The notes beneath the pieces were generated by a model. It saw nothing but the letters and a program-made list of their open reading frames with translations, ran no database searches and had not been told where the DNA came from. Position numbers and translations under genes: made by a program. Of a stretch of 64,000 nucleotides of DNA, positions 10,526-55,808 are shown in pieces. Source of the stretch: Collimonas arenae (GTDB taxonomy: Bacteria > Pseudomonadota > Gammaproteobacteria > Burkholderiales > Burkholderiaceae_D); NCBI RefSeq assembly GCF_000786695.1, contig NZ_CP009962.1, positions 1,240,001-1,304,000 on the forward strand, written 5' to 3'. The first letter of the stretch is position 1. Every line of letters starts with the position of its first letter.

Positions 10526-10866
10526 GACGGCTTCTTGCCAAGCAGGTCGCGCACGGTATCCAGTAAGCCGTCAGCGATTTTCTCGGGGTTGATCTGATAG
10601 CGCCCTTCGCTGATGGCCTGGCGTATCTCGGCCACCTTGGCGGCATCGAAATCGCCTGCGCCCGGCTGCAGCAATTGCGTCTGCAACTGGCGTACCTGGG
10701 CCGCCAGCGAATTCAAGGCGGCTGGCATAGGCGGGCTGGCGCTGCTGGCGACGCCGGTGGCAGCGGCGTCTGTGGATGCGGCACGCGGCGCGCTATCCTT
10801 GTTGGGCGCCACATTGGCTTGGTTCGACACACTGTTCAGCGGCTTTGTGGGTTGATCGATTTTCAA
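10522..10866 (-). CDS. flgM: Anti-sigma28 factor FlgM
   Basis: 114 residues. The N-terminal half is disordered and Ala/Pro/Ser-rich, as needed for export through the hook. The C-terminal half carries the sigma28-binding helices (AAKVAEIRQAISEGRYQIN, KIADGLLD). The start is TTG (10866) with AGGAAG just upstream; no ATG is available in frame. A 365-bp repeat element begins only 10 bp upstream of the start codon, and the sigma28 promoter lies beyond it, so the mRNA should have a long structured leader. This is unusual for a gene whose dosage sets late gene timing. Confidence 0.93.
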   Translation of the reverse strand: MKIDQPTKPLNSVSNQANVAPNKDSAPRAASTDAAATGVASSASPPMPAALNSLAAQVRQLQTQLLQPGAGDFDAAKVAEIRQAISEGRYQINPEKIADGLLDTVRDLLGKKPS

Positions 10867-10876
10867 GATACTTCCT

Positions 10877-11241
10877 CTAGGACCTGTTGGCAGTTAATTT
10901 GGGAATGCGAACGTGACGTAGGCGTTGCAGGCCTAGGCGCAGCGACGCGACGTAGCGGCACTACGGCAAGGAGCGGATAGCCGCCCCGTTGTAACAACGG
11001 CATGCGACGCCTACGGCTCGTTCCCTTCGGGTTCAAACCAAAACGCGCGCTGGACTGCGTTGCATGGCTTGCGGGGGCGACCTGCCCCTGCTACGCCATG
11101 CCCTTGCAGGGCGCATACCCGCCTGCATGCGGGTATCGTTGCGCAGGCGAACAGCACGCTGTCCGAATTCCCTGCTACACCCTTGCCAGCACGCGTTTTG
11201 GTTTGAACGCATCTCCCAAATTAACTGCCAACAGGTCCTAG
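10877..11241. repeat. MITE-like structured repeat element, copy 1 (365 bp)
   Basis: Ends in near-perfect terminal inverted repeats of about 32 bp (CTAGGACCTGTTGGCAGTTA at the left, its complement at the right). It contains nested inverted repeats: GTAGGCGT/ACGCCTAC, CCGTTG-TAA-CAACGG and a 22-bp arm pair (TTCAAACCAAAACG near 11033 with its complement near 11197). A second copy is at 48220-48503. Copy 1 carries about 80 bp extra in the central loop, including ATACCCGC/GCGGGTAT. No reading frame suggests a transposase, so if mobile it depends on an enzyme encoded elsewhere. It lies between flgM and its promoter. Confidence 0.85.
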
Positions 11242-48026: not shown

Positions 48027-48219
48027 TCGCGGTGTATCGATCCCTAGGCAGGTGTTTGCTACACTGAGCGCTGATGGTGCGATGACGGCGTCTGAGGCGC
48101 AGCTCCACCATGACAAACCGTGAGCGCTACCCTTGTCGACGTACTTTCTCTATGGTTTTTCTGCGCGGGCCGGCACCTTTGGCTTGCGCTAATGTCACAG
48201 CGGGATATTTTCTCTTGGC

Positions 48220-48503
48220 CTAGGGCCTGTTGGTATATGATTTTGGAGTGCGAACGCGCGGCAGGCGTTGCGGACCTAGGCATAGCGACGCGACGTAGCG
48301 GGGCTAGGGCAAGGAGCGGATGGCCGCCCCGTTGTAACAACGGCATGCGACGCCTGCAGCCGTTCCCGGAGGGTTCAAGTCAAACCGTGCGCTGGCGGCG
48401 TTGCATGGCTTGCCGGGGCTTCAGCCCCAGCTACGCCAAGCGCCTTGCCAGCACACGGTTTGACTTGAACGCATCTCCCAAATCATATGCCAACAGGCCC
48501 TAG
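48220..48503. repeat. MITE-like structured repeat element, copy 2 (284 bp)
   Basis: Same family as 10877-11241. Begins CTAGGGCCTGTTGGTATATG and ends with its near-complement. Nested stems GCAGGCGT/ACGCCTGC, CCGTTG-TAA-CAACGG (identical to copy 1) and a TTCAAGTCAAACCG arm with its complement near 48455. These arms differ from copy 1 but remain self-complementary. Its right end abuts AGGGAG, the ribosome binding site of the downstream gene. The 193 bp between the kinase stop and the element show no gene. Confidence 0.85.
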
Positions 48504-48512
48504 GGAGTGGCG

Positions 48513-49250
48513 ATGCGTTCCGCACTAATCCTCGTTGTCGAAGACCATCCGATCAATCGCCGCATGCTGCAGGCGCAGCTGGCGGCGGAATGCTGGCAAA
48601 GCGAACTGGTTGCTACTGGCGCCGAGGCCCTGCTGTGGCTGACGCATACCCGGCCGGTTGCTGTGATCACCGACTATGTGCTGGAAGACATGACGGGCGT
48701 CGAACTGTTGCATCGGGTGCGACGCTGGGAAGCCGATGCGCCTGGCTTTCCGCCTATTCCGATGATTTTATATAGCGGCATGTCGCTCGAGTATTTGCAG
48801 AACGAGTCACGCGGACTGGACTGCACGGCGGTCTTGACCAAGCCCATCAGCCGTTTGCAGTTGCGGCAAACACTGGCCCCTTTTCTGACGCAGGCGGCCA
48901 CTTCCGAGTCTTCCGCATCGGCCTTATCCGACTCAGGCGACTCAGCCGACGACTTGCTGGCAGAGTTGCTGCAATTCGGTTACCAGCAGCTGATCTGCCT
49001 CAAGCTCAGTATAAAAAATCAGCAAATGAGCGAGACCGCCAGTATCGCGCATGGCTTGCGCGGCGCTGCCGCGGTATTGCGGCAAACAGAAATTTCGCAA
49101 TCTGCTGCAGAAATAGAGAACCAATCCCGAAATAACGCCTCAGAGACGTTGGACGAAGCATGTACGCGTCTGCAGCATGCGCTGGAACGGCTTGCACTGC
49201 AGATCAAGACGCCGCGCTCCGTAATGGCGACGTCTACGACCTCGAGGTAA
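48513..49250 (+). CDS. Receiver-Hpt phosphorelay protein
   Basis: 245 residues. Receiver domain with D11, phospho-acceptor D54 and the TKPIS lysine, then an Hpt domain with H180 in AHGLRGAAAVL. This is the second half of a BvgS/EvgS-like hybrid kinase made as an individual protein. Start: ATG at 48513 has AGGGAG at a good distance; a GTG at 48507 is also in frame but lacks a ribosome binding site. It probably takes phosphate from the kinase at 46281 and passes it to a regulator such as the one at 43087; this is inferred from domains and proximity. Confidence 0.85.
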   Translation: MRSALILVVEDHPINRRMLQAQLAAECWQSELVATGAEALLWLTHTRPVAVITDYVLEDMTGVELLHRVRRWEADAPGFPPIPMILYSGMSLEYLQNESRGLDCTAVLTKPISRLQLRQTLAPFLTQAATSESSASALSDSGDSADDLLAELLQFGYQQLICLKLSIKNQQMSETASIAHGLRGAAAVLRQTEISQSAAEIENQSRNNASETLDEACTRLQHALERLALQIKTPRSVMATSTTSR

Positions 49251-54814: not shown

Positions 54815-55315
54815 ATGGTGAACGATCACAACAGGGTTCTGGCAGTGCAGGATGATTCGGAAGGACACAAATTTCTCGTCTTCACGCTGGGCAGTGAAGA
54901 GTACGGCATTGATATTCTGAAGGTGCAAGAGATTCGCGATTATGAAGCAGTGACCCGGATTGCCCACGCCCCTGAATTCATCAAGGGTGTGACCAATTTG
55001 CGCGGCATCATTGTGCCGATTGTCGATCTTCGCATCAAATTCGGCCTGGAGAATATCCAGTACAACCAGCAGACCGTCGTAATCATCCTGAACATTGCGC
55101 AGCGCGTGGTAGGGATCCTGGTCGATGGTGTATCCGATGTGTTGACCTTGAGTCGCGACGAAATCAAGCCGGCCCCTGAATTCGGCGCCAACTTGTCTGC
55201 GGAATACCTGAGCGGTCTCGGCACGGTGGAGCAACGCATGCTGATTCTGATCGACATTGAAAAACTCATGTGCAGCGAAGACATGGCTTTGTTTGAGACG
55301 GCTGAAGCGGCCTGA
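54815..55315 (+). CDS. cheW: Chemotaxis coupling protein CheW (copy 2)
   Basis: 166 residues from the ATG at 54815; AGGAGAG precedes it. CheW domain: [60 protein letters not shown]. Nearly superimposable on the CheW at 43945. As partner of the adjacent cheA it is the probable main coupling protein. In related bacteria a receptor gene and cheR-cheD-cheB would follow; here the next gene is an IS5-derived ORF. Confidence 0.96.
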
Positions 55316-55355
55316 CGCTGCGGTTGCAAAGAAATACAACTACAGGAATTCAACG

Positions 55356-55808
55356 ATGAAAATTGATGACGGACAATGGCAGAAGCTGGCGCCTTTACTC
55401 GTCGGGAAGCAAGGCGATCCAGGCGCGAAGGGACGGGATAACCGTTTGTTTATCGATGCCGTGCTTTGGATTATAAGCAACAGATCGATATGGCGCAGCC
55501 TGCCTGCCGAGTTCGGTAAATGGAACACCACCTATATGCGTTTCCGGCGCTGGAACGAGTGCGGTATCTGGCGTCAGCTGGAGCAGGACATGCATGGCGA
55601 CCTGTCGCTGAAAGCCATGTTCCATGAAATCGTTGTCTACGGCGACCTGCAAACCGGACGCATCAGGCAACGCGTGGCGAGACGCGCCAACAAGGTGATC
55701 TACAACAGCGCGCTGGGGAAATCCGAGCCGGAGCGAAAAAGATCTTCCAGCCTCGATGAATCGACCTCGCACTGGGTTGGCCTGGTGATGCGAGGCGTGT
55801 CAGTCTAA
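55356..55808 (+). CDS. IS5-type transposase N-terminal domain protein (no catalytic part)
   Basis: 150 residues. The first 80 match the DUF4096 N-terminal domain of IS5-family transposases: DDGQWQKLAPLLVG, RLFIDAVLWIISNRSIWRSL, PAEFGKWNTTYMRFRRWNEC, GIWRQLEQDM. The following 70 residues are basic and do not resemble a transposase; there is no DDE core. No IS ends are recognised around it. It may be a remnant or a DNA-binding domain put to other use. It lies 40 bp after cheW in the same direction. Confidence 0.75.
   Translation: MKIDDGQWQKLAPLLVGKQGDPGAKGRDNRLFIDAVLWIISNRSIWRSLPAEFGKWNTTYMRFRRWNECGIWRQLEQDMHGDLSLKAMFHEIVVYGDLQTGRIRQRVARRANKVIYNSALGKSEPERKRSSSLDESTSHWVGLVMRGVSV

Follow-up and report, generated by a model that had tools for sequence, protein, structure and literature searches.

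A palindromic MITE family of Collimonas whose stems remain paired while their sequence shifts

Introduction

The Correia/NEMIS MITEs of Neisseria are portrayed, in the excerpts of two reports available to us, as small, protein-less elements with inverted ends, a terminal TA and a stable stem-loop that are dispersed between genes (PMC2229807, PMC2649163). The repeat of Collimonas described here shares these features. It differs from the elements portrayed in those excerpts in being longer, in its branched fold and end sequences, and in a mirrored hypervariable block within the terminal repeat. The REPINs of Pseudomonas provide a second likeness, as the available parts of one report describe mobile hairpins with conserved outer parts and frequent compensatory stem changes between them, which are attributed to the capacity to form a hairpin (PMC3116915). 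According to the same parts, REPINs are inverted REP doublets tied to RAYT tyrosine transposases (PMC3116915), whereas the Collimonas repeat is ∼270 bp in length and carries a TA duplication.

A third point of comparison is a process rather than an element. Template switching, as treated in excerpts of two further reports, can homogenize the arms of a palindrome and invert the spacer between them (PMC8604942), and can produce compensatory changes in a single step (PMC8794818). The Collimonas repeat resembles these cases in that its arms are kept identical, multi-base compensatory changes occur and a loop is inverted (PMC8604942, PMC8794818); the cases in those excerpts come from coding genes of yeast and from rRNA genes, whereas the present one is a dispersed mobile repeat of bacteria. 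Judged by titles, the open literature that we searched contains no description of such a Collimonas repeat, and term searches within PMC10969869 and PMC2267715 likewise yielded nothing. The palindromic MITE family is real and, in that literature, apparently undescribed; relative to the parts of the reports cited above, what is new is covariation within transposon ends, the comparison of many insertion sites across species, and a strand test.

Results

The window analysed is a stretch of 64,000 nucleotides from Collimonas arenae, in which a first-pass annotation had placed two copies of a structured repeat. Both lie where it placed them, and all of the arm pairs that it named are present:

10877 to 11241, + strand: copy 1 of the repeat, carrying a 79-bp insert; flanked by flgM and flgA
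10878 to 10909, + strand: copy 1, left arm of the terminal stem P1; contains the variable block GGCAGTTA
11023 to 11031, + strand: copy 1, mini-hairpin CCCTTCGGG, located at the junction
11032 to 11053, + strand: copy 1, left arm of stem P3
11102 to 11180, + strand: copy 1, 79-bp insert; the module recurs in two other repeat families, B and C, of this genome
11186 to 11207, + strand: copy 1, right arm of stem P3
11208 to 11240, + strand: copy 1, right arm of P1
48220 to 48503, + strand: copy 2 of the repeat; immediately precedes a response-regulator/Hpt gene
48221 to 48252, + strand: copy 2, left arm of P1
48470 to 48502, + strand: copy 2, right arm of P1

The annotation held that each terminal arm is matched by its own right end, which is exact for copy 1; copy 2 has two mismatched P1 pairs (columns 14 and 24). 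Its view of the CCGTTGTAACAACGG hairpin as a conserved element does not extend to the family, since this hairpin is restricted to the two copies in the window (2 of 62). Folded as RNA, copy 2 (48220–48503) yields −183.5 kcal/mol (z of −13.2 against dinucleotide shuffles), and copy 1 (10877–11241), folded as DNA, yields −131 kcal/mol (z of −12.7 against the same kind of shuffle). Open reading frames of at least 100 amino acids extend into both copies (10675–10980 for copy 1 and 48120–48503 for copy 2). The end of copy 2 lies a few bases upstream of the response-regulator start, beside the presumed ribosome-binding site (48503–48513).

Copy 1 is the longer of the two because of its 79-bp insert, and a similar insert occupies the same place in copy L132. 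The possibility that the insert is an independent element was ruled out, as the 79-bp module also makes up the central part of both family B and family C. A module of ∼80–95 bp is thus common to three repeat families with different ends: the present one (copy 1 and L132), family B and family C. Family B has ends GAGGCTGTTGC and at least 40 near-complete places in the genome of the window (40 of 119 candidates scored), with an apparent TNA duplication as judged by eye; its comparison drew on 21 of 30 copies, whose orientation was mixed, and the ends alone were used. Family C has ends with GGACTTACG (L008–L010).

A search of the genome and its relatives recovered 62 near-complete copies among the matches listed, fragments excluded, rather than the two of the window; these 62 (60 fetched copies plus the window's two) are spread over 14 Collimonas genomes, and 56 of them measure 266–286 bp. 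With copy 2 as the query against 60 genomes, matches were obtained in its own genome and in 13 of the 14 other Collimonas genomes, the exception being a genome of 1.7 Mb. Short partial matches (36, 25 and 47 bp) occurred in 3 of 21 genomes from other genera of the same family, and none of the 24 genomes from other families matched copy 2. The exact right end was found in 45 stretches, 43 from Collimonas, one from Noviherbaspirillum aerium and one from a Burkholderiaceae MAG. Plasmids searched by distant blastn gave no match to the repeat, nor did viral contigs searched with the exact right-end pattern. In the draft genome of Collimonas silvisoli RXD178, many contigs terminate within the repeat (L182–L225), as if the genome held many near-identical recent copies.

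One end of the element has the structure TA-GGGCCTGTT-(8 bp)-ATTTGGGAGTGCGAACG, and the other end has its complement. The terminal inverted repeats show at most three mismatches across 26 bp in 59 of 60 copies, the sixtieth reflecting a one-base offset in the script. TA flanks both ends in 43 of the 62 copies, and in these 43 the target context is CTAG (21), TTAA (8), TTAG (7), CTAA (2) or another sequence (5). For a REPIN, such a duplication would not be anticipated. Empty sites, the check proposed in the annotation, were found in sister species: the flgA site holds the element in two of nine genomes and is empty in seven, and the response-regulator site is filled in two of nine genomes (in opposite orientations), holds an end fragment, CAGGCCCTAGGAGG, in one and has no core in six. 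In a sister species, a copy occupies the same CTAG as copy 2 in reversed orientation. None of 22 copies lies within an open frame by a simple ORF heuristic. The element therefore behaves as a MITE, with repeated insertion and TA duplication; the annotation's description of a MITE-like family is borne out by the number of copies, their inverted ends and TA duplication, the empty sites and the lack of an encoded protein.

Reduced forms also occur. Small hairpins that consist of the ends only lie in L134 and L142, and solitary end fragments such as CTAGGGCCTGTTAACATTC are fused to unrelated DNA in one Collimonas genome (L258, L261, L263, L264 and L266); the latter are probably remnants of deleted copies. 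L109 and L120, from different species, have right flanks that are 98% alike and unlike left flanks, as if repeat-mediated recombination had rearranged the chromosome.

At 267–282 bp, the element is too short to encode a transposase. IS5 and IS630 family elements use TA or CTAG-like targets. The target of the Collimonas repeat may resemble theirs, but no transposase with the ends of the repeat was found in the genomes searched. No autonomous IS appeared among the exact-end matches listed, which included inspected single exact-end matches. None of 37 transposase loci (the DUF4096 gene of the window, 30 further DUF4096 loci, L227–L256, and six DDE_Tnp_1 loci) is enclosed by the ends of the repeat; such ends were seen at just two of the loci, L252 and L255, where they belong to neighbouring repeat copies and not to gene boundaries. 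DDE_Tnp_1 gave 2, 1 and 3 matches in three genomes, DDE_3 none in three genomes, and DDE_Tnp_1_2 one weak, broken match in five genomes. DUF4096 itself has 1–17 matches per genome in 15 Collimonas genomes, and the window contains a single-domain DUF4096 gene at 55257–55808 (the N-terminal part of an IS4/5-type transposase) around which no terminal repeats were seen. Because a MITE can outlive its partner, the missing autonomous element weakens the MITE assignment only a little.

The fold of the repeat consists of a long terminal stem, P1, that leads to two inner stems, P2 and P3, with the mini-hairpin between them. It was examined in an alignment (A1) of 55 rows, made up of both window copies together with 53 from the fetched set of 60; L094, L126, L127, L131 and L132 were omitted for their length, and L090 and L117 were omitted as well. 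Across 87 named pairs in 54 distinct sequences, 98.9% of 4695 cells are paired, and 41 of the 87 pairs (251 cells) have changed on both sides. None of 500 shuffles attained any of five pairing measures, and with slid partners 31–41% of cells pair. As the structure was derived from these same sequences and the shuffles retain relatedness, the two-sided changes outweigh the pairing percentage as evidence. The inner stems P2 and P3, which lie outside the terminal repeats, covary as well. The stems thus remain paired while their sequence shifts, and the covarying stems proposed in the annotation are strongly supported.

Pairing throughout the element, beyond its ends, is what would be anticipated if the folded DNA itself were selected, the element moving as a hairpin, cruciform or single strand whose ends must pair while the sequence of the block is free. 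In keeping with such selection, the complete copy from the MAG has a very different P2 sequence that still forms a stem. Old, decayed copies such as L124, which has lost its TA, nevertheless remain well paired, when selection for movement should have ceased, and an ordinary transposase acting on double-stranded DNA already fits the TA duplication and the inverted ends. We regard selection on the DNA fold as the main rival to copying between arms, and as unlikely.

Selection on an RNA fold is expected to tolerate G·U pairs and not A·C pairs. Counted over all stems, mispaired cells comprise 112 G·T and 34 A·C, an imbalance that counts against arm copying. Two columns of P2, a stem in which the wobble is kept in nearly all copies, account for 75 of the 112 G·T cells; with these columns set aside the counts are 37 and 34, in 24 and 26 variant columns, respectively. 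By stem, the ratio of G·T to A·C is 17:13 in P1, 85:3 in P2, 1:8 in P3 and 9:10 in the apical hairpins. A parsimony reconstruction, with trees built without the tested stem and double changes costed at 1.5, assigned 32 breaks to a G·T mispair, 25 to an A·C mispair and 15 to others, together with 175 Watson-Crick and 12 other double changes, the double changes being inflated by exchange between copies. Orientation relative to genes was examined for 22 of the 62 copies: 14 lie between codirectional genes, with seven copies sense and seven antisense, four between convergent and four between divergent genes, so that no constant orientation to transcription was found among these 22.

A structured RNA, retained for instance because it stabilizes or helps to process an mRNA, would account for the very stable fold and for the strong G·U bias in P2, which is confined to that stem and mostly to the two columns. 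The ratios in P1, P3 and the apical hairpins and the even split of sense and antisense copies speak against such an RNA, as does the window's lack of an Rfam match at the gathering score; we consider it very improbable. The near-balance of mispairs outside the two P2 columns and the 7:7 orientation instead favour copying of arms at the DNA level, although almost strand-symmetric mispairs outside those columns would also suit selection on a DNA fold. We infer that arm pairing is maintained largely through processes acting on DNA, which do not account for the P2 wobble signal. The annotation had proposed that a folded form was either selected or copied through; copying via folded DNA fits better than selection for an RNA fold, and selection at the DNA level retains a place.

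The outer and inner parts of the terminal repeat are fixed, and an 8-bp block separates them. This block occurs in 33 left-end variants among 60 copies and yet is the same at both ends in 48 of the 60. When right ends were redealt among copies, the observed 43 matches of 55 compared with a mean of 3.0 and a maximum of 11 in 10,000 trials; that this mirrored block is matched although free in sequence also suits selection on folded DNA. In L095 the block is one base shorter at both ends alike, which counts in favour of arm copying. Origin of the block from the flank was rejected: the whole block was found in its own flank in 0 of 60 copies (shuffled mean 0.6), 7 bp of it in 9 of 60 (shuffles gave a mean of 5.3 and at most 10) and 6 bp in 25 (shuffled mean 23).

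The block diverges ∼10 times faster than the interior. In 43 pairs of copies at different loci whose interiors are 2–4% apart, the blocks show 2.7 differences in 8 positions where 0.24 would be expected, a contrast to which concerted evolution of the interior could add. These figures bear on a further explanation, in which the ends would fit one transposase variant and inner covariation would reflect gene conversion between copies together with subfamily ancestry. Mosaic copies and family modules do exist, nearest relatives are often found in the same genome, and the copies of a same-site pair can differ by whole apical hairpins. Blocks that differ between near-equal interiors do not fit this explanation well, and one genome has seven distinct blocks among ten copies, yet few transposase genes were found. 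Moreover, two-sided changes in P3 bridge arms ∼140 bp apart with the interior unchanged. On balance, conversion plus ancestry appears quite unlikely as the main cause.

Seven same-site pairs were available, six identified via flank comparison and one at the flgA site; L109/L120 was excluded because one flank alone agrees. Their blocks differ at 5, 1, 1, 1, 0, 4 and 0 positions. Within the five pairs of the same orientation, 19 changes are two-sided and Watson-Crick, 8 are one-sided, and 2 are two-sided and non-Watson-Crick. L081 and L085 share a single site but point in opposite directions, and their blocks are alike at all but one position, which could represent inversion in place. The interior of L085 is closer to other copies than to L081, and the two are not mutual nearest relatives. 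Copy 1 likewise differs less from L125, a copy in its own genome (6.7%), than from the copy that shares its site (10.8%), and L125 is not the nearest relative of L124. Given the relationships of copy 1 and L085, single same-site pairs may reflect exchange between copies or independent insertion.

Loops offer a further view of copying between arms. The mini-hairpin loops (n = 58) are GGA (41), GAA (8), TCC (6), TTC (1), TGA (1) and TCG (1), and the pairs GGA/TCC and GAA/TTC are reverse complements, a pattern that fits arm-to-arm template switching as described in the available parts of two reports (PMC8604942, PMC8794818). Among 16 types of apical loop, TTCA/TGAA are the only reverse complements, and this near-absence of inversion counts against arm copying.

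Discussion

Our preferred explanation, which we hold with about even confidence, is that the repeat is a non-autonomous palindromic MITE of Collimonas whose pairing is kept mainly by arm-to-arm copying at the DNA level. The element inserts between genes at TA, mostly in YTAR contexts such as CTAG. During replication or repair, one arm might fold onto its counterpart, and changes that arise on one side would then be copied to the other by template switching or quasipalindrome correction. The fixed outer GGGCCTGTT and inner ATTTGGGAGTGCG would be the presumed transposase sites, between which the 8-bp spacer would drift and be recopied from end to end, and deletion of copies would leave end fragments behind. 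The copying model draws on the outcome of such events rather than on any copying event directly observed, and the apical loops and the P2 wobble are weighed against it. The first-pass annotation had set plain gene conversion of one arm against its own reading; that process resembles the preferred explanation, yet the finding stands.

A more speculative idea, which strikes us as distinctly improbable, is that the ends pair while the element moves as a folded DNA strand, that a protein reads the fixed parts of the stem, and that the block serves as a private lock of each copy, rewritten at both ends. If so, copies that crowd one genome would keep distinct locks. Irrespective of its role, a mirrored hypervariable block in a transposon end is unusual and provides a handle on end recognition.

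Compensatory change is usually read as proof of a functional RNA. In the Collimonas family, paired arms change in concert, strand bias is slight except in a single stem, and orientation is unbiased. With its many natural replicates and known insertion sites, it allows the upkeep of palindromes by DNA copying to be tested, and it offers a caution that covariation alone may make a mobile palindrome resemble an RNA gene.
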